Under the pieces are notes generated by a model that saw only the letters and a program-made list of their open reading frames with translations, was not told where the DNA came from and ran no database searches. This document shows, in pieces, positions 12,325 through 63,248 of a stretch of DNA of 64,000 nucleotides (positions within the stretch are counted from its first letter, which is position 1; every line of letters begins with the position of its first letter). Source of the DNA: Roseibium sp. (GTDB lineage Bacteria; Pseudomonadota; Alphaproteobacteria; Rhizobiales; Stappiaceae); assembly GCA_017643215.1 (NCBI GenBank), contig JAEPNV010000021.1:1-64000 (forward strand), written 5' to 3'. The translations under genes and the position numbers were made by a program.

Positions 12325-12541
12325 GGCTGGACTTCCAATTCCGGGGGGAGGGGCCACGCCGGGCCAAACCTGCGCGTTTTAGGCGTCAGCCGCCTGTGGC
12401 ACAAGGAAAATGAACGCACGCGACTGCGGATCAACATTCGGCCATCGCCTTTTTGCCCGCCATTTACCGGCCCGAATTGACGCTGGCGGCGCGCTGTGGA
12501 ACGAGGGTATGACCGCCCCTTGTCCGATATGGAACACGCCG

Positions 12542-24612: not shown

Positions 24613-25455
24613 TCAGTTCGTGGTTGAGCCTCGGGCGTTTGGAAAGAACAACTGCTCGCCGCCGATCTTGAAGCTTGCGATGGCCTTTTGGCCGTCCGGC
24701 CCGGTCAGCCAGTCAATGAACTTCTGGCCAAGGCCGGCCTTCACCGACGGATGCCTGTCCGGATTGACCAGAATGATGCCGTATTGGTTGAACAGACGGT
24801 CATCGCCTTCGGCGAGAATCGCAAGGTTGCCTTTGTTGTTGAAGGCGAGCCAGGTGGCCCGGTCGGACATCGTATAGGCGCCTTTGCCGGCCGCCAGGTT
24901 CAAGGTCGCGCCCATGCCTGAGCCGGTTTCCCGGTACCAGGTGCCCGATGCGTCGGCCGGATCGATGCCCGCCTCCGTCCACAGCGCCAGCTCCTTCTTG
25001 TGGGTGCCGCTGTCGTCGCCGCGCGAGGCAAACACGGCCTCGGCTCCGGCGATTTGTTTCATCGCTGCCGGTGCGTCGGTCATGCCCTTGATGCCGGCCG
25101 GGTCGTCAGCGGGGCCGACAATCACGAAGTCATTGTACATGACGTCGAGACGCTCCACGCCGAAGCCATCGGCGACGAATGTGAGTTCCGCCGGTTTGGC
25201 GTGTACCAGAAGCACGTCGCCATCGCCGTTGGCCGCGTTCTTGAGCGCCTGCCCGGTGCCGACGGCAACAACCCGCACGTCGATGCCGGTCTTTTCTTCA
25301 AATTCCGGCAGGATCGCGTCGAACAGTCCGGAGTTCTGTGTGGATGTCGTCGACTGGACAACGATGAAATCCGTCGCCTGAGCCGTCAATCCAGGTCCCG
25401 TCAGGACTATCCCCGCTGCCAGAAATCCGGCGCATAGAAACTTTACAAGTTTCAT
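24613..25455 (-). CDS. tupA: Tungstate ABC transporter, substrate-binding protein
   Basis: A 280-residue periplasmic protein with signal peptide (about 1-27, ending LTAQA). Mature residues begin with DFIVVQSTTSTQNSGLF; the TTST motif is the TupA anion-binding signature. ASRGDDSGTHKKEL, GSGMGATLNLA and YTMSDRATWLAF also fit. TupA binds tungstate much more tightly than molybdate in studied cases. It is the last gene of the operon, 24 bases after tupC; tupA more often comes first. Confidence 0.9.
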   Translation of the reverse strand: MKLVKFLCAGFLAAGIVLTGPGLTAQATDFIVVQSTTSTQNSGLFDAILPEFEEKTGIDVRVVAVGTGQALKNAANGDGDVLLVHAKPAELTFVADGFGVERLDVMYNDFVIVGPADDPAGIKGMTDAPAAMKQIAGAEAVFASRGDDSGTHKKELALWTEAGIDPADASGTWYRETGSGMGATLNLAAGKGAYTMSDRATWLAFNNKGNLAILAEGDDRLFNQYGIILVNPDRHPSVKAGLGQKFIDWLTGPDGQKAIASFKIGGEQLFFPNARGSTTN

Positions 25456-55438: not shown

Positions 55439-55795
<357 letters not shown>

Positions 55796-56935
55796 TTATT
55801 TTTGACCCGCCTTTTGGGAGTTATGGCCCATTCCGGGACTATTCCGGGATTCCAGGGCTTCCAGCCCGTCCCGGACGTCCTCATCGAGCACATGCGCATA
55901 GCGCACGGTCGACGCGATGTCGGAATGCATGAGGGATTTTTGCACCAGGGCGAGGTCCCGCGTGGCGCGCAAGAGCTTTGACGCGAACTCGTGCCGCAGG
56001 TCATGGATCCTGAAGTCGGTGATGCGGGCCGCCTTGAGGGCCGTCGCCATCGTCCGCTTCAGGCTTTCATAGCTGATCGGCCGGCGCTTGCCGCGATTCG
56101 GATGGCGCTGCATTTCATAGCTCCATACCGCCTTGCCCGGCGCCCTGGCGGCCTCGGCCACGATCGTTGCCATCTGGCCCCGCGTGACCGGGATCCAGAC
56201 AAGGCCGTCGCCCTTGCGCCAAATCCGGATCCGGCACCGCGGCTCGTCCAGATCCTCCTTGGTCATGCCGATCGCGGCATTGACGCGAAGGCCCCTTGCG
56301 GCCAGGAACAAGAGGAACGGGACATAGTCCGGCCGGAGCGCGGCCCAGAACCGGTCCGCCTCGTCGCTGACGAATTCCCGCACGCGCTCTTTCGGTTCCT
56401 TCAGGGCGAGCTGCCGCCAGTCGAACTGCTCCAGATCGATGCTCACATGCCAGACCTTGCGCGCCCGCCGCAGGATCTGGCGCATGGGTTCGATGATCTG
56501 GCGGTTGACCGTTGCCGGAGCGACGGGTTTGTGATTGCGCTTTCCCTTGGTTTCGCCGGCGCGCTTTCGAACGGCGAGCGCTATGTCATTGGGCGTGATC
56601 GACATGAGCCGCTTTTGATCCCCGATCAACCGGCCGCAGTGTGCAAACGCGATCAGGGAATCGACCTCGGACCGCTGACCCTGGACGACTTCATCGAAAT
56701 AGCGAAGGCAAGCCTCGCCGAGCGTCATGCGGTCGTTCGGCTTTTCCGTCCTTAGTCGCCGTTTTTCCTGCCGTTCGAACTCTTGTGCGCGGCCGCGCGC
56801 CGTTTCGCCAGTTGAGCCGTGAAATCGACGACGCTCCCCGTCGATCTGGAGGACGAAGTCGAACTGATAGTACGGCGACTTGAGGATGGTTTTGCCGGTT
56901 TTTGGGTCTTTCTTTCTGGCAAGATAGACGGACAT
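55796..56935 (-). CDS. Tyrosine-type integrase
   Basis: A 379-residue site-specific recombinase. An N-terminal arm-binding domain (MSVYLARKKDPKTGKTILKS..) is followed by a SAM-like core-binding region (about 70-175) and the catalytic domain. The catalytic residues are Arg in AARGLRVNAAIGM, HxxR in IHDLRHEFAS, His in SLMHSDIASTVR and the nucleophile Tyr in RYAHVLDEDV. It lies 38 bases from the tRNA-Pro fragment and reads towards it. It is the last gene of the minus-strand phage operon. Confidence 0.95.
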   Translation of the reverse strand: MSVYLARKKDPKTGKTILKSPYYQFDFVLQIDGERRRFHGSTGETARGRAQEFERQEKRRLRTEKPNDRMTLGEACLRYFDEVVQGQRSEVDSLIAFAHCGRLIGDQKRLMSITPNDIALAVRKRAGETKGKRNHKPVAPATVNRQIIEPMRQILRRARKVWHVSIDLEQFDWRQLALKEPKERVREFVSDEADRFWAALRPDYVPFLLFLAARGLRVNAAIGMTKEDLDEPRCRIRIWRKGDGLVWIPVTRGQMATIVAEAARAPGKAVWSYEMQRHPNRGKRRPISYESLKRTMATALKAARITDFRIHDLRHEFASKLLRATRDLALVQKSLMHSDIASTVRYAHVLDEDVRDGLEALESRNSPGMGHNSQKAGQK

Positions 56936-57156
56936 GACACGTCCCCTGCGATAAAGGCGGCCAGGTCCTCCCGGATATAAGCCCGCCGTGTTCCTCTGAG
57001 GCGATAGAAAATCTCACCATTGTCGCCATACCGGGTCAACGTCTTTATATCGACGCCGAGGAAACTGGCGGCAGCGGTATGGGTCACCCAGACCTGATCG
57101 TTAAACAGCATGTCGAGCCGTTTTTCGACACTGCCGGGAACCGGGCTCATCCTCAC
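56752..57156 (-). CDS. Excisionase-like DNA-binding protein
   Basis: A 134-codon frame. Residues about 20-65 resemble a MerR/excisionase-type winged helix: WVTHTAAASFLGVDIKTLTRYG..GEIFYRLRGTRRAYIREDL. The C-terminal half (about 73-134) overlaps the integrase start by 184 bases in another frame and is low-complexity, basic and serine-rich. The true function likely sits in the first 70 residues. Its start overlaps the preceding stop (ATGA). Such a protein normally steers the integrase toward excision. Confidence 0.65.
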   Translation of the reverse strand: MRMSPVPGSVEKRLDMLFNDQVWVTHTAAASFLGVDIKTLTRYGDNGEIFYRLRGTRRAYIREDLAAFIAGDVSCPSILPERKTQKPAKPSSSRRTISSTSSSRSTGSVVDFTAQLAKRRAAAHKSSNGRKNGD

Positions 57157-57776
57157 CCCCTCACAGGAACGCCGATGAGGCCAAGGCGCTTGATAAGTTC
57201 GCCGCGGGCCTTGTCGGGTCCCCAGGCCTTGACCGACTGCGGGAAGGGCTCCGGCAGGCGCCAGTGGCCGGGCCTGCGGCAGGTGGCCATCAGGTCCCGG
57301 ACCTCGGTGGCGGTCAGCGTCTTGTCGAGCGCGGAAAGATAGGACAACTGATCGAGGAGGGCCGCGTCGCTCAGCTCGACGGGCACCCGCGCGGCCGCGT
57401 AGATCGCCGCCGTCACGGTGTCGCGGGCCTCGCGGACATGATCCATGAAGATGTCCGGATCGCCGGAAAGCTGCGCGGCGAGGCCTAAGAACGGCCGCGT
57501 GGGCTCGCCCAGATAGGCGGCGTGGAAGTCGGCGAGCAGCGCCGCCGCCCGGTGGCGCTCGTCCGCCCGGTCATGCATCAGGCAGCAATGCTGGGCGACC
57601 GTATAGGTCACATGCGGTGTTGCGCCGTTGAAGCGCGGGATCTTGGAGAGCGCCTCGACAATGTCCGGAAAGTGGATGTCGTCGGCGGTGAGGTTCGCCA
57701 GATCCACGATCCTTCCGGACGCCATCTGGCAGGGCGCGGTCAGGACGGGCACGTCGCCGGCAAGGGGAAAGGTCAT
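57153..57776 (-). CDS. HD-like phosphohydrolase with altered metal motif
   Basis: A 207-residue phage-type protein. The text matches the YfbR-like HD hydrolases often found in phages: YTVAQHCCLMHDRA, then LLADFHAAYLGEPTRPFLGLAAQ. The usual HD pair is replaced by Asp-Phe-His, so the metal site looks altered, although the first and later His residues remain. If active it would dephosphorylate nucleotides. It overlaps neighbours by four bases on both sides. Confidence 0.6.
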   Translation of the reverse strand: MTFPLAGDVPVLTAPCQMASGRIVDLANLTADDIHFPDIVEALSKIPRFNGATPHVTYTVAQHCCLMHDRADERHRAAALLADFHAAYLGEPTRPFLGLAAQLSGDPDIFMDHVREARDTVTAAIYAAARVPVELSDAALLDQLSYLSALDKTLTATEVRDLMATCRRPGHWRLPEPFPQSVKAWGPDKARGELIKRLGLIGVPVRG

Positions 57777-59014: not shown

Positions 59015-59395
59015 TCACCAGCTTCGCAACCGCAGGTGGGCAGCGTTTTGGGCGGCGTTGGCGACGGCGCGGATGTCGCGGGCGAGGGTATCGTCCCCTT
59101 GGCTCTCGGCGGACATCGCCAACGATTCAACATCGGAAAGGTAGTGCTCCGTCAGGTGCGTGGCCGTCAGGCGGCACCCTTTCGGAGCGGTTTTGCGGCG
59201 CGCCCAAAAATTCCTGCGGGGCCACCGGTCGGTGTTCCACGGGTTTTGCCAGCGGGCACCGGTGTAAACGGGGGTGTTGTATTCATACTGCCACCACAAA
59301 ACCCCGAGATACCGGCGCTTTCGGCCGGTCCAGTATGTTTTCGGCGGCTGGAGCGGCGGCAAGTCAGAGGCGGCATGGAACGGCTGGGCGGTCAT
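59015..59395 (-). CDS. Phage protein of unknown function
   Basis: A 126-residue protein. The first half is rich in Trp, Tyr and Arg (GVLWWQYEYNTPVYTGARW..WPRRNFWARR); the second half is helical (HLTEHYLSDVESLAMSAES). No domain is recognised. Its ATG overlaps the stop of the upstream membrane-protein gene. Confidence 0.5.
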   Translation of the reverse strand: MTAQPFHAASDLPPLQPPKTYWTGRKRRYLGVLWWQYEYNTPVYTGARWQNPWNTDRWPRRNFWARRKTAPKGCRLTATHLTEHYLSDVESLAMSAESQGDDTLARDIRAVANAAQNAAHLRLRSW

Positions 59396-59688
59396 GGCCG
59401 TGTCGTCCCCTTGGCAAAAAGGGCCCCATTGCCCAAACGCGCGGCAATGGGGCCAGTGCTCTTCAGGGAGGATGCGCCAGGTGTCCGGCCTGACGCGGGT
59501 GTCTCCCCCGATGCGGCGGGGGAGCGGGTAGGGCGCCGGTCTTTTGACCCGTCGCCAATGTCGCGGTCGAAGGATTTGAGCTGTTCGCGGCGCGCGATGA
59601 TCAACAGCGCCAGCACGAGGCACACAAACGAGGCGGCGAGCACGCCAATGAGCGCGGTGGCCTTCACGATCTGGAGGGTGGTGTCCAT
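59392..59688 (-). CDS. Small single-pass membrane protein (first gene of the integrase operon)
   Basis: A 98-residue protein. One membrane helix (about 10-33, ATALIGVLAASFVCLVLALLIIA) is followed by a charged, low-complexity tail. AAGGA lies seven bases before the ATG. Directly upstream lies the AT-rich operator-bearing region, so it begins the operon that ends with the integrase. Confidence 0.55.
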   Translation of the reverse strand: MDTTLQIVKATALIGVLAASFVCLVLALLIIARREQLKSFDRDIGDGSKDRRPTRSPAASGETPASGRTPGASSLKSTGPIAARLGNGALFAKGTTRP

Positions 59689-59725
59689 GTTGGGTCCTTG
59701 CGTCTATAACCAAACATGATGCAAT

Positions 59726-59766
59726 ATTACATATAATGCAATGTCAGAATTACATAAAATGTAATT
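59726..59766. promoter_or_regulatory. Tandem repressor-type operators upstream of the integrase operon
   Basis: Two 17-base sites. ATTACAT-ATA-ATGCAAT is at 59726-59742 with one mismatch between arms. ATTACAT-AAA-ATGTAAT is at 59749-59765, perfect, and extends to a 19-base palindrome (59748-59766). Their centres are 23 bases apart. They lie between the divergent starts at 59688 and 59790. The same word occurs at 61745-61761, beside the repressor gene. Confidence 0.75.
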
Positions 59767-59789
59767 CGACGAAAAAATGTTGATCTAAC

Positions 59790-60605
59790 ATGCGGACTCT
59801 CGACCCGGAATCGGCGACCTGTTTATATGACACTGCATGCGAGGCAGGGTTGGGATGCATGAGCAGGCCACCGATCGACAAACTGGAAATGCATAGGGCT
59901 GTCGGTCTGCTGACCGAAGAGCTCGACAAGATAGGTCCAATAAACCTTCGGTTTTCAAACGACGTATCGGGACTTGAGGCTGCGCACCGGATTCTAGGCA
60001 AGTCGGAAACAGGCGAAAACTTTCAGCGGGCTATGGATACACTTCCGCCGAACCGTTTCTTCTGGATCGGTGCTTTTATGGGCGACTCGGTTATCGGAAC
60101 GGTTGCGGCGCGTTGCGATGACAGTGCCTGGTCATTGCAACGATTCGTCAAGGAGTATTGGGAACGGACCTTCGATGCCGAGGGAGGAGGAAAAGTCTCC
60201 ATCATGCCGGACAGCCCGACGTCTGCGCGCAACTACTTTGGGCGTTTTGCCTATCTGGGTGAAGCCGTCACGCGGGACGATCTGCGTGGTAAGAACCTTT
60301 CCTACATACTCGTTCGGCTGGCTTTATTGTTTGCCCATGACGAATGGCGCCCCACCGTCGCGTATGGTTGGATGCGGGACTGGCATGCCTACGCCGGGCT
60401 TCCCATTCGTTGGGGGTTCAACCGCTGCGTCCAAAATGCCTTCGAGTGGCAGACACCGCCGCTGAAAAAAGATTGGCATAATCTGGCTTTTTTGCTGTGT
60501 GATCAGGACGGATTTGACCAACTAATGAAGCACCCCGCACCACGGGCACTGTTTGAGGCGCGAAAGAATACCCAAACAGGAAGCGTGACCCGCCCATCGT
60601 CCTGA
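59790..60605 (+). CDS. Predicted GNAT-like protein (prophage cargo)
   Basis: A 271-residue protein, or 248 from an alternative ATG at 59859. Residues about 90-215 look like an acyltransferase fold: FFWIGAFMGDSVIGTVAAR, then AVTRDDLRGKNLSYILVRLALLFA, where RGKNLS would sit at the acetyl-CoA loop. No family is firmly recognised. Codon use is less GC-rich than in neighbours. The last 188 bases overlap the PAS-like gene on the other strand. It is preceded by the operator pair, and no strong ribosome site is seen. Confidence 0.5.
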   Translation: MRTLDPESATCLYDTACEAGLGCMSRPPIDKLEMHRAVGLLTEELDKIGPINLRFSNDVSGLEAAHRILGKSETGENFQRAMDTLPPNRFFWIGAFMGDSVIGTVAARCDDSAWSLQRFVKEYWERTFDAEGGGKVSIMPDSPTSARNYFGRFAYLGEAVTRDDLRGKNLSYILVRLALLFAHDEWRPTVAYGWMRDWHAYAGLPIRWGFNRCVQNAFEWQTPPLKKDWHNLAFLLCDQDGFDQLMKHPAPRALFEARKNTQTGSVTRPSS

Positions 60606-61020
60606 CAGGAAGAATAAGCCTCTGATAAAAAACGCTGACTTTACGTCCGCATGTATCGCGCATCTCCGCCCGGACAACATCAAAGACGGGCACGGCAGTT
60701 TTAGCTGCCTCGAAATAACTCCGCCCAACCAGCTCGCAGTACTCCTTCCCAAGAAAGCTGCGGAATTCGTCCGTGCATTCAGCCCAGCCTGATCCAAGGA
60801 TCTTCACGGACAATGCGTCGTTTCCGCATAATAGCAGGTCCGGACTATCTCCGCGCTTTGGTGTGCCCTCGAACATGACTAAGCGAGGGAAGAGAGGAAC
60901 AAGGTCTTCGCACATCCGGCCTTCGTGCTGCCGCCAGACCTCTAGCAACCGTTGGGAATAGTCATCCCCGGCGCCCTGGTCGATGTGTTCGAGCGGCATG
61001 GTTTGGCAGAACTCTTTCAT
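60418..61020 (-). CDS. PAS-like protein (prophage cargo)
   Basis: A 200-residue protein. Residues about 68-150 recall the short alphaproteobacterial PAS-type domains: LSVKILGSGWAECTDEFRSFLGKEYCELVGRSYF..RKVSVFYQRLILPV..GSRFLFGYSF. The C-terminal 45 residues are weakly structured and lie antisense to the GNAT-like gene end. It may be a signal-binding moron protein. The start overlaps the stop of the 76-residue gene (ATGA), and it shares the repressor transcript. Confidence 0.5.
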   Translation of the reverse strand: MKEFCQTMPLEHIDQGAGDDYSQRLLEVWRQHEGRMCEDLVPLFPRLVMFEGTPKRGDSPDLLLCGNDALSVKILGSGWAECTDEFRSFLGKEYCELVGRSYFEAAKTAVPVFDVVRAEMRDTCGRKVSVFYQRLILPVRTMGGSRFLFGYSFAPQTVPVVRGASLVGQIRPDHTAKKPDYANLFSAAVSATRRHFGRSG

Positions 61021-61247
61021 ACCTTAAGGCTCCGCTGGACATGGCAAACAGAGATGAGCCTTTTCATGCGGGTGACGAATCTTTCTGCCTGTTCATCTGT
61101 CAGCGCATGTGGATTGGTGTGTAATGCGATGTTGAAGCACACAAGTTCCGGGATATCGTTGAGCCCGTCTCGCCGTGCGTCGTGCACTACATCAATAACC
61201 GCCTCTCGCAACGACTTGCGGTATTCTCTTAGAGGGCGCGTACTCAT
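61017..61247 (-). CDS. Small protein of unknown function in the repressor operon
   Basis: A 76-residue protein, MSTRPLREYRKSLREAVIDVVHDARRDG at the N terminus. It is helical with EQAERFVTRMKRLI near the end. No family is recognised. It follows the repressor gene by eight bases and overlaps the PAS-like gene by four, so the three form one transcript. Confidence 0.55.
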   Translation of the reverse strand: MSTRPLREYRKSLREAVIDVVHDARRDGLNDIPELVCFNIALHTNPHALTDEQAERFVTRMKRLISVCHVQRSLKV

Positions 61248-61255
61248 GACCCGTC

Positions 61256-61666
61256 CTAGTTTTCAACGCTCTTAGTCTCTTCTATAAACCGATAAATCGC
61301 ATAGAGGAGACGTTTGACACTAGAGCTTTTGGCGTGGCCATTCGCATATCTTTGATCAAGGTTACGGGCTTCTTCGAAAGCGAGTTCGAACAACTCTGAT
61401 TCGACCAGCAACGGTTCGTCAGCTGCAACACCGGCAAAATTGCCCGCTCCTGGACGGACATCCAGATCCCCGGCAAGCAGGCTATAAAACTCCTGCTCGG
61501 AGACATTACATATTTCGGCCAGCTTTTTGATGTGGTCAGTCGTGGTCGGGCTCTTCCCTGTTTTAAGCCTGGATACATGTGGTGCAGAAACGCCGAGCCG
61601 TTCTGCAAGCTCTTCGCCCTTCAAGCCTGTTAAATCAGATGCGAGTTTGACCGGTGTTTTGCCCAT
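61256..61666 (-). CDS. Phage repressor-type XRE regulator
   Basis: A 136-residue protein. Residues about 5-60 form an XRE helix-turn-helix: KGEELAERLGVSAPHVSRLKTGKSPTTTDHIKKLAEICNVSEQEF. The C-terminal part (about 65-130) is helical and acidic and may dimerise. It is read away from the operator-like region at 61.7 kb, opposite the Cro-type gene, the layout of a CI/Cro switch. The start at MGKTPVKL is used; an upstream in-frame ATG falls within the operators. Confidence 0.8.
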   Translation of the reverse strand: MGKTPVKLASDLTGLKGEELAERLGVSAPHVSRLKTGKSPTTTDHIKKLAEICNVSEQEFYSLLAGDLDVRPGAGNFAGVAADEPLLVESELFELAFEEARNLDQRYANGHAKSSSVKRLLYAIYRFIEETKSVEN

Positions 61667-61689
61667 AGGCGAATTATCCGCCAGCGCGG

Positions 61690-61761
61690 ATGTAATGCCA
61701 TAACGCCAAGAGAAATCAGTTGATGTAATATTTTGCATATCAATATTGCATATTATGTAAT
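61690..61761. promoter_or_regulatory. Operator region of the repressor/Cro switch
   Basis: A full site ATTGCAT-ATT-ATGTAAT lies at 61745-61761 (one mismatch). Two half sites ATGTAAT lie at 61690-61696 and 61723-61729, spaced 33 and 32 bases along, about three helical turns. The region sits between the divergent starts at 61666 and 61781 and shares its consensus ATTRCAT-N3-ATGYAAT with 59726-59766. Confidence 0.7.
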
Positions 61762-61780: not shown

Positions 61781-62155
61781 ATGACCCTTGACGAATTTCT
61801 CATCGAGGAAGGCATGACGGCAAAGGCATTTGCCGAACTTGCAAAGACCTCAGAGCCGCATTTGTCCCGCATCCGACGTGGCACAACCCGCCCGAGTTGG
61901 GAGCTTGCGAAGCGAATCTCGCAACTGACCAGAGGGCGGATCACTGCCTCTAGTCTGATGGAGGTTGCAGCGGAAGGGGGAGAAACAACGAATGGCATTT
62001 TGGGTCCTGTCTGTGAAGGGAGTGGTCAAGGCCTCGCCGTGAAGGTCACTGATCGCATCGGACCGGAAGACAGCCCTGTGGCCGCACCGTCGACGGAAGT
62101 GTCTCAAAGCGCACGGGACGCGTCATCGGATAAAATCGAGGAATTTATGCGATGA
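61781..62155 (+). CDS. Cro-type helix-turn-helix regulator
   Basis: A 124-residue protein. Residues 1-60 form a helix-turn-helix: MTLDEFLIEEGMTAKAFAELAKTSEPHLSRIRRGTTRPSWELAKRISQ. The rest is an unstructured tail. GAGGCAGGG lies 10 to 15 bases upstream. It is opposite the repressor gene and overlaps the CII-like gene by four bases, so it would be the first lytic-phase regulator. Confidence 0.75.
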   Translation: MTLDEFLIEEGMTAKAFAELAKTSEPHLSRIRRGTTRPSWELAKRISQLTRGRITASSLMEVAAEGGETTNGILGPVCEGSGQGLAVKVTDRIGPEDSPVAAPSTEVSQSARDASSDKIEEFMR

Positions 62156-62640
62156 CCGTGCGCCCGACGACCGAGCACGACCGCGCGGCGTTGAAGGCGG
62201 CGGTGCGCGCGCTCACCCGCGCCTGCGGCGGACAGGACCGGGCGGCAATGGCGACACGGGTCGGCCAGAGCACCTTGTCCCGCTACGGCTCGATCGCCCA
62301 TCCGCATGAGCATGTTCCGCTCGACGTTCTGATGGATCTGACCATCGACGCCGATGATCCGGACGTGGTGCGCACGCTGTGCCGCATGGCGAACGGGGTG
62401 TTCGTGCCGCTGCCCAAACCCTCGGTCGTGCCGACCACCTGGACGGCGGCGCTTGGCGCGGCGGTCAAAAGCGGCGGCGAGGCGGCCGACACGATCTGCC
62501 GGGCGCTGAATGATGACGGCCAGATCACGCCGGAAGAAATCGCCGATTTTGAAATCATCGAAAAGCTGTCGGCCGCGATCGAGGCGCTGGCGGTCCTGCA
62601 ACTCTACGCGCGCCAGGTTTGCGGGGAGGGGGAGGGATGA
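62152..62640 (+). CDS. CII-like phage regulator
   Basis: A 162-residue protein. RACGGQDRAAMATRVGQSTLSRYGSIAHPHEHVPLDVLMDLT (about 20-62) resembles the N-terminal helix-turn-helix of the phage CII/CP76 family. The C-terminal half (about 95-155) is helical and may form the oligomer. It begins within the stop of the Cro-type gene. It probably activates the repressor or integrase promoter. Confidence 0.6.
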   Translation: MTVRPTTEHDRAALKAAVRALTRACGGQDRAAMATRVGQSTLSRYGSIAHPHEHVPLDVLMDLTIDADDPDVVRTLCRMANGVFVPLPKPSVVPTTWTAALGAAVKSGGEAADTICRALNDDGQITPEEIADFEIIEKLSAAIEALAVLQLYARQVCGEGEG

Positions 62641-62684: not shown

Positions 62685-63248
62685 TCATGCGGTGGTGGTT
62701 TTGCGCTTCAGTCTTTCGGCGCGTTCCCACACTTTCTCATAGGTGTGGCCGTCAAAGGACAAAAGCCAGCCGAACGGCTTGTGGTGCCAGGGAACATAGA
62801 GCCGCTCCCGCCTGTCACCTTCTACCGCGTCGAGGGCGTCGTTATAGGCCTTGGCATCGATTGCGCGCAGGATGGGTGGTTCGGCGCTTGTGATGCGGAG
62901 CATCCGCGCATACCACGCTCCACATTCTGCCTCGTCATGCTGGGCGCTTTCTTCAATGTCGGCCAAGAGATTGTAATAGTCGCGCTGAAGCTGTTGGTGA
63001 TCCCGCGCCTGGCCGCCGTAGTCAAAGGCCAACTGGATCGCGCCAAAAACGGCAATGGCAAAGCCCAGCCAGATTGTGGCAAAGCCGAAATGGCTGGCCA
63101 CGTCGCTCATGGCGCTTGCGCCAAGAACCACGACAACAAAGCTTGTCATCCGGCTGAGCCTTTCGAAGAACTGGCGCCGGGCCGTGTGGTACAGCGCGTT
63201 GCGCAGCACGTTAAAGCGGATGTTGTCGCGGTCCCGTTCCATTTTCAC
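62685..63248 (-). CDS. SLATT-like two-transmembrane protein
   Basis: A 187-residue protein. An N-terminal helix (about 1-33, RFNVLRNALYHTARRQFFERL) is followed by two membrane helices (about 34-54 and 57-79, MTSFVVVVLGASAMS and IWLGFAIAVFGAIQLAFDYG). A long helical part comes after (QLQRDYYNLLADIEESAQ). This order is that of SLATT domains, which are proposed pore-forming effectors in bacterial conflict systems. The C terminus is not typical. It overlaps the small gene before it by four bases and reads against the phage early genes. Confidence 0.6.
   Translation of the reverse strand: MKMERDRDNIRFNVLRNALYHTARRQFFERLSRMTSFVVVVLGASAMSDVASHFGFATIWLGFAIAVFGAIQLAFDYGGQARDHQQLQRDYYNLLADIEESAQHDEAECGAWYARMLRITSAEPPILRAIDAKAYNDALDAVEGDRRERLYVPWHHKPFGWLLSFDGHTYEKVWERAERLKRKTTTA

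Follow-up and report, generated by a model that had tools for sequence, protein, structure and literature searches.

Gene order and palindromes of the immunity region

The window analyzed here comprises 64,000 nucleotides (positions 1 to 64,000) of contig JAEPNV010000021.1 from Roseibium sp., and the right part of this contig of 64,815 bases is the left end of an integrated prophage. Its genes are arranged in the order int <- OL [GNAT -> <- PAS <- 76-residue protein <- Rep] OR -> Cro -> CII-like (Table 1), where OL and OR denote the proposed left and right operator regions that are the subject of this work. The palindrome ATTRCAT-N3-ATGYAAT is present in both of them, i.e. between the divergent starts at 59688 (minus) and 59859 (plus) and between those at 61666 (minus) and 61781 (plus). 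As judged from sequence comparison, the immunity region of this temperate phage, which belongs to marine Stappiaceae, thereby appears to be flanked on either side by one and the same repressor-binding palindrome, in the layout of phage lambda.

Table 1 Features of the prophage end (positions in the window)
Feature	Position	Strand	Basis
Probable left attachment site (first 40 nucleotides of tRNA-Pro(tgg))	55719..55758	+	98% match to tRNA-Pro bases 1-40
Tyrosine integrase, last gene of the leftward operon	55796..56935	-	PF00589 2.2e-19; phrog_1 7.9e-41
Excisionase-like helix-turn-helix (HTH) protein (xis)	56752..57156	-	phrog_66 7.9e-7; HTH_17 just below cut-off
First open reading frame (ORF) of the leftward (int) operon, N-terminal region hydrophobic by eye	59392..59688	-	ORF
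OL half site ATGCAAT, abutting OL site 1	59719..59725	+	exact half site
OL operator site 1, ATTACATATAATGCAAT	59726..59742	.	0 mismatches to ATTRCAT-N3-ATGYAAT
OL operator site 2, ATTACATAAAATGTAAT	59749..59765	.	0 mismatches to ATTRCAT-N3-ATGYAAT
GNAT-fold protein of the immunity module	59859..60605	+	AlphaFold, Foldseek, VIA
PAS-fold protein, last gene of the rep operon	60418..61020	-	AlphaFold, Foldseek, VIA
Antisense overlap of GNAT and PAS coding ends, 188 bp	60418..60605	.	ORF coordinates
Small protein of 76 residues, encoded between rep and PAS and part of the conserved module	61017..61247	-	comparison with relatives
XRE-type repressor (Rep), 136 residues	61256..61666	-	HTH_3 3.7e-10
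OR half site ATGTAAT	61690..61696	+	exact half site
OR half site ATGTAAT, plus a 6-of-7 left half at 61732-61738	61723..61729	+	exact half site
OR full operator, ATTGCATATTATGTAAT	61745..61761	.	0 mismatches to ATTRCAT-N3-ATGYAAT
Cro-like HTH protein, 124 residues	61781..62155	+	HTH_3 1.8e-5; phrog_35 2.4e-7
CII-like regulator	62152..62640	+	PF06892 1.5e-6; phrog_101 8e-19

A preceding sequence-only reading had placed two full sites in OL and one full site plus two half sites in OR, each set between divergent starts, and all of these were found as claimed, the ORF coordinates confirming the divergent starts; the inventory needed amendment only in that OL also holds a half site and that its two full sites lie 23 bp apart. 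Three sites with up to two mismatches were detected in the window, all of them exact (0.35 expected; three were reached in 1 of 100 shuffles), and 9 of the 16 exact half sites (ATGYAAT/ATTRCAT) fall inside the two operator regions. At up to three mismatches the count was five as compared with 3.1 expected, which is near background, so only the exact sites are informative. A scan of the strain's own genome (4.99 Mb) at up to two mismatches revealed 13 places, namely three exact, none with one mismatch and ten with two, and a reversed-pattern control gave seven; the exact copies are confined to the prophage and do not occur at random frequency. Among 87 genomes of the family, six exact places were found (control 0), of which three are the window sites, two lie at relatives of the same repressor (G055 and G061) and one is in G027, where the search of the family genomes found no repressor relative. 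One exact half site lies inside the rep coding sequence (61505-61511).

These counts also bear on the notion that the sites are chance AT-rich palindromes in intergenic DNA. The operator regions are indeed AT-rich and the motif is near background at three mismatches, but three exact 17-mers in 5 Mb, a control of 0 in 87 genomes and the pairing seen in relatives (see below) make the probability of this explanation negligible.

A conserved module with paired palindromes in related loci

A GNAT profile drew nine genome loci and 13 viral contigs, some of which are the same phage seen twice; the genome contigs were scanned with a single peptide pattern (nine loci), and the named relatives (Stappia, Roseibium/Labrenzia and Pannonibacter) are a sample, which points to a host most likely within the Stappiaceae. 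The order GNAT -> <- PAS <- (small protein) <- repressor was present in 22 of 22 loci, including all 13 viral contigs found, with the qualifications that the small protein of L051 gave no profile match (an 88-residue ORF occupies its place), that the repressor matches were weak in L048 (2e-6) and L051 (0.007), and that L032 is cut at the contig end. The genes between the operators, formerly taken for cargo, are instead a conserved immunity module. The same gene order was found in an isolate, Labrenzia phage vB_LagS-V1 (PP058680.1, L075; host Roseibium aggregatum RF14), in which the repressor is annotated as 'repressor protein CI' and the other three module genes as hypothetical. In the phage collection no repressor relative was found at E 1e-5 and the GNAT relative was a single record; an order-wide repressor search was positive in 1 of 397 genomes, which was the strain's own, and plasmid relatives amounted to 13 records.

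Each of 17 loci was then searched for a palindrome common to the sequences that precede GNAT and the repressor gene, with 200 random pairs of segments from the same locus and 200 shuffles of the regions as controls. In 13 of the 17 loci the result was never equalled by the 200 within-locus pairs, 12 times through the class words given below and in L049 through a different palindrome. An element-specific palindrome was present at both module ends in 12 of the 17 loci, 2.0-2.4 kb apart; the OL and OR centres of the window lie 2007.5 bp from each other, those of 13 relatives 2017-2422 bp. Four classes could be distinguished: class A (ATTRCAT-N3-ATGYAAT), paired in the window and L042 and seen at OR alone in L015, whose contig is cut; class B (TGMACGC-N4-GCGTKCA), with eight loci, in two of which both ends are identical in 18 of 18 letters; class C (TTRCC-N5-GGYAA), paired in L052 and present in L049 as a perfect word at OL only, with a one-mismatch form at OR; and class D (TAGCA-N4-TGCTA) in L051, where the two sites are the sole ones in its 10 kb at up to one mismatch. 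L048 possibly represents a fifth operator class.

In each of five whole viral contigs (34-44 kb, possibly incomplete), exactly two copies of the perfect class B word were counted; at two mismatches there were three more places, as compared with five in the control. In the 87 genomes there were 26 exact class B places (control 3), 14 of which make up seven pairs at distances of 2324-2420 bp, every pair having a GNAT gene in between, and 12 of which are single; since the class B pattern was built from some of the same genomes, the informative part of this count is the pairing and the scarcity elsewhere. The L042 contig contains three class A sites at up to two mismatches, all inside the module.

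The same comparison bears on the spacing of 32-33 bases between half sites, which had been read as stacked binding on one face of the helix. The spacing itself is correct for OR of the window (33 and 32 bp), but one-face stacking is not a conserved rule, as a spacing of 32-33 bp is present in two of the five class A OR regions: between exact half sites, the spacing is 32 in L015, 45 in L042 and 13 in both L040 and L041. A two-mismatch class A site outside the module is shared by L040 (contig position 12503) and L041 (contig position 25074) and is a possible third operator.

The operators follow the repressor

The window integrase, xis and CII proteins are 69-71%, 54-56% and 63-65% identical, respectively, to those of L044-L046, which carry class B operators and yielded no match to the window Rep or Cro at E 1e-4. 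The window Rep (58-59%), Cro (54-56%), GNAT (52-56%) and PAS (49-50%) proteins are instead nearest to those of the class A loci L040-L042, where no integrase, xis or CII match was found within the 12-13 kb examined. That the operators follow the repressor, and not the integrase, is thus well supported by these comparisons, and the simplest reading would be a joint transfer of everything from OL to cro, both operators included, into a different integrase backbone. In a tree of 58 GNAT proteins, the window, L031, L040 and L041 grouped together at 100/100, and the class B loci, the class C loci and the L048/L051 pair formed separate supported branches. The proposal that one regulator could control both the integrase operon and its own switch is well supported in the same comparative sense, as the paired palindromes change together across operator classes and follow the repressor.

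A different account would give Rep and Cro one region each, the shared palindrome reflecting common descent and not shared control. The HTH segments of the window Rep and Cro are indeed similar (APHVSRL and EPHLSRI). Such separate ownership should, however, permit the two regions to drift apart, whereas in several operator classes both ends have retained the same palindrome, and we therefore consider this account very improbable.

Promoter-like sequences at the operators

In all eight class B loci, a -35-like hexamer directly adjoins the inner edge of OR (e.g. TTGACA-16-CATTAT) and a leftward -35-like hexamer likewise adjoins the inner edge of OL, so that the operator at either end occupies the spacer of a promoter-like sequence that points outward. 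Four of the eight loci also have a GNAT-ward match, TTGA-18-TAAAAT, on the far side of OL, and three have weaker forms of it. This layout suggests that GNAT could be on at a time when int and cro are off. When a promoter-scanning tool was applied to a single OL and a single OR, it gave the GNAT-ward match for L045 and the rightward match for L043 but not the leftward match.

The OL palindromes might alternatively serve the GNAT promoter, with Rep repressing or activating GNAT and int being merely a neighbour. The gap between OL and the start codon of GNAT varies little (92-100 bp) among 12 loci of classes A and B, and in L043 the divergent neighbour of GNAT is, by eye, not its integrase. On the other hand, the GNAT-ward match of class B lies beyond the operator and is hence left uncovered, it is the leftward hexamer that abuts the operator, and the gap is not constant in other classes, being 64 in L049 and 209 in L051 (no valid start codon was available for L052). 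We regard this alternative as doubtful; an effect of OL on both the leftward and the GNAT promoters is possible. In the window, GNAT probably starts at 59859 rather than at 59790, because homologues begin at the former point.

A probable lambda-type switch

Taken together, the palindromes very probably represent the two operators, OL and OR, of an immunity region of the lambda type, and the XRE-type repressor is predicted to bind both. In the prophage, Rep would bind OL and OR; at OL it would shut the leftward promoter of the operon that ends in xis and int, and at OR the rightward promoter of cro and the CII-like gene. After induction, Cro would probably read the same sites. Such a switch would involve binding and repression at both regions and may include looping between OL and OR and expression of GNAT in the lysogen. 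The interior between OL and OR is a conserved, exchangeable cassette, with rep, the small protein and PAS in one operon and GNAT entering from the OL side.

Several observations weigh against this reading. The class A palindrome is weak in L040 and L041, where the OL site has three mismatches, and their contigs contain four class A sites each at up to two mismatches, one of them elsewhere than in the module. The within-locus controls equalled the result in 10/200 cases for L040, 27/200 for L041, 12/200 for L016 and 5/200 for L048, and the shuffles did so in 5/200, 11/200, 0/200 and 3/200 cases for the same loci and in 2/200 for L051 (0 in 13 of the 17 loci, L016 included). In L049 the top-scoring pair is a palindrome other than the class C word, and the operators of vB_LagS-V1 are merely suggestive. 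Loci within one class are related and are not independent tests, the classes being the independent units. As regards promoters, the scan of the window gave none at OL and one rep-ward match at OR, the leftward hexamer of class B is top-ranked in only four of the eight loci, and the class B hexamer script was run without a shuffle control. Finally, Rep shows no sign of the C-terminal, self-cleaving S24 peptidase domain of LexA/CI repressors, as no peptidase is included in the 19 Pfam families listed at E up to 1.

The likeness to lambda is nevertheless considerable. The lambda operator sets are about 2.3 kb apart (PMC5880393), as compared with 2.0-2.4 kb for one palindrome family in two regions here, and CI acts at OL and OR on PL and PR, with the rex genes coming after cI (PMC11077077). 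Extra genes likewise follow the repressor in its operon here, where the small protein and the PAS protein take the position of rexAB (PMC11077077). Further common traits are the divergent repressor/cro pair at OR, the CII-like gene to the right, and xis and int leftward from OL. The differences are that the repressor here is small and without a peptidase domain and that a GNAT gene comes in from the OL side, its end lying antisense to that of the final gene in the repressor operon. Lambda possesses three operators per region; here there are two full sites or one. The operator pair is ordinary in kind, yet it provides a clean natural experiment in which palindrome and repressor change together across phage relatives. 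The palindromes are real, look functional and are of a known kind; what is new is this variant of the immunity cassette, with its strongly conserved gene pair.

GNAT and PAS are linked partners with a resident host version

The AlphaFold model of the GNAT protein (predicted local distance difference test, pLDDT, 85.8) matched GNATs with Foldseek (probability 1.00) and VIA (Z 11.2, root-mean-square deviation [rmsd] 2.9, 140 residues aligned), so that by its predicted structure it belongs to the GNAT fold, acyltransferase activity being putative. For the PAS protein (pLDDT 80.4, with residues 158-200 of 200 at low confidence), Foldseek gave a probability of 1.00 to LOV/PAS domains with a best E of 1.7e-3 (not below 1e-3), and VIA gave Z 8.9 and rmsd 2.9 over 113 residues against PYP; the model likewise assigns it to the PAS fold. 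The window GNAT and PAS proteins had no match in Pfam, PHROGs or PADLOC (E up to 1) or in NCBIfam (E up to 5), and relatives gave weak family matches only, 1 of 16 GNATs matching Acetyltransf_1 at 0.12. Against PDB sequences GNAT gave none at E up to 5 and weak ones by profile. No function was assigned to the GNAT-PAS family in the database records examined, and no description of the pair was found by title or abstract start among open-licence papers.

Outside the window, a PAS-family gene converges on the GNAT 3' end in 60 of 62 GNAT loci, some of which are copies of one phage, and the two genes overlap by 14-239 bp in 58; L096 and L100 have no PAS partner. The PAS profile was iterated, its first round already matching 61 sequences and the last one 62. 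The GNAT gene is present in 58 of the 87 genomes of the family and in 39 of 397 genomes of the order. Eight chromosomal GNAT copies form one clade (100/100), and all eight adjoin tRNA-Pro(tgg); by these comparisons a resident host GNAT-PAS pair lies beside the tRNA-Pro that the prophage would use. Convergent GNAT/PAS genes also occur beyond the phage modules (L053-L065, L080-L107), and loci of the distant family f23 encode a longer PAS protein with an additional N-terminal part; 15 PAS ORFs of more distant loci, read by eye, showed extra N-terminal sequence and no evident HTH. This brings to light a sizeable family of GNAT-PAS pairs that occupy the immunity regions of phages as well as one fixed locus of the host and have no significant match in the libraries searched.

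Three identities were considered and rejected. PF00765 is not among the matches of 16 GNAT members and hhalign gave probabilities of 0.6% and 0.2%, which argues against a LuxI; LuxI structures are absent from the 50 VIA rows listed for GNAT, which excludes nothing. True LuxI genes occur in 8 of the 31 relatives searched and none was found in the strain's own genome. LuxR receptors consist of a ligand domain fused to a DNA-binding HTH, and such a fusion is not supported for PAS, a protein of 200 residues with a low-confidence tail from residue 158 and no HTH family among the matches of 17 members. In GNAT toxin-antitoxin systems of the AtaT/TacT type, toxin and antitoxin genes form one operon; GNAT of the window is preceded by a gene on the opposite strand and ends within PAS, which converges on it.

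Possible roles of the GNAT-PAS pair

Most likely, the GNAT and PAS products adjust the switch or protect the lysogen. One form of the latter would be a lysogenic-conversion or exclusion system, and not a sensor, made up of GNAT, PAS and the small protein and standing in place of lambda rexAB. Their position between the two operators, which in lambda is that of rexAB behind cI (PMC11077077), agrees with this; five proteins of the region gave no match to the PADLOC anti-phage defence profiles, which excludes little, and a related pair resides in host chromosomes at a fixed place beside tRNA-Pro, which speaks against it. We judge such a system rather unlikely.

A more speculative possibility, which we hold to be improbable, is that the pair represents a signal synthase and its receptor, in sequence unrelated to LuxI/LuxR, built into a lambda-type switch. 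GNAT would make a small acylated signal, PAS with the small protein would sense it and tune the repressor, and the antisense overlap would lock both as one inherited unit. Phage and host may even listen to each other, because the host has a related pair beside the attachment tRNA of the phage. In favour of this reading are the tight linkage of the partners, the existence of a version in the host and, for prophages of Roseobacters, which fall in the same class, the use of XRE switches with LuxI/LuxR (PMC13345283, preprint); against it counts that GNAT and PAS have no relation to LuxI or LuxR.

The switches of that preprint are xre-luxR-luxI plus hth quorum-sensing modules of four genes in Phaeobacter/Roseobacter prophages (PMC13345283). 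They resemble the present region in belonging to alphaproteobacterial prophages, in having a lysogeny operon that begins with the XRE gene and faces an HTH gene of opposite orientation, in being swapped as a cassette between phage backbones, and in the host having its own version of the pair. They differ in that GNAT is not a LuxI (no PF00765 match, profile probability under 1%), that no HTH was found with PAS, that GNAT is convergent and outside the operon, and that OL and OR are both present here. As that survey was based on PF00765 (PMC13345283), it should not see the GNAT family of the window, and if the pair were a signalling system, LuxI-reliant searches for phage communication would miss it.

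VqmA of vibriophage VP882 offers a further parallel as a phage-borne PAS-fold protein with a host relative (PMC12802170). VIA aligned PAS with VqmA at Z 8.0 and rmsd 3.7 over 108 residues, tied with other PAS domains, and no sequence relation between the two was shown. Unlike PAS, VqmA is itself a transcription factor, and a GNAT partner is not part of the VqmA system as described in that text (PMC12802170).

Attachment site and neighbouring genes

The prophage appears to sit in tRNA-Pro(tgg). An intact copy of this tRNA is located at C22:1900-1976, on another contig of the strain's genome, and the other prophage end likely lies on the same contig; the resident GNAT-PAS pair comes after the tRNA and this likely prophage end. 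Within the int operon, the ORF at 57153-57776 is related to phage deoxyribonucleoside 5' monophosphate phosphatases (phrog_318, 1.8e-29), and the first ORF had no family match in PHROGs or PADLOC. The minus-strand protein after the CII-like gene (62685-63248) had no PADLOC match and gave weak Pfam matches to Tad (0.0037) and SLATT_1 (0.029), both below the cut-offs. Possible sulfur-metabolism genes are annotated in vB_LagS-V1, namely a PAPS reductase, which is divergent from GNAT, and a cysteine dioxygenase. A second module copy exists in the strain's own genome at C39:88381-90243 (L016), with GNAT, PAS, the small protein and a repressor (39% identity), and it is flanked by ORFs that resemble transposases by eye.

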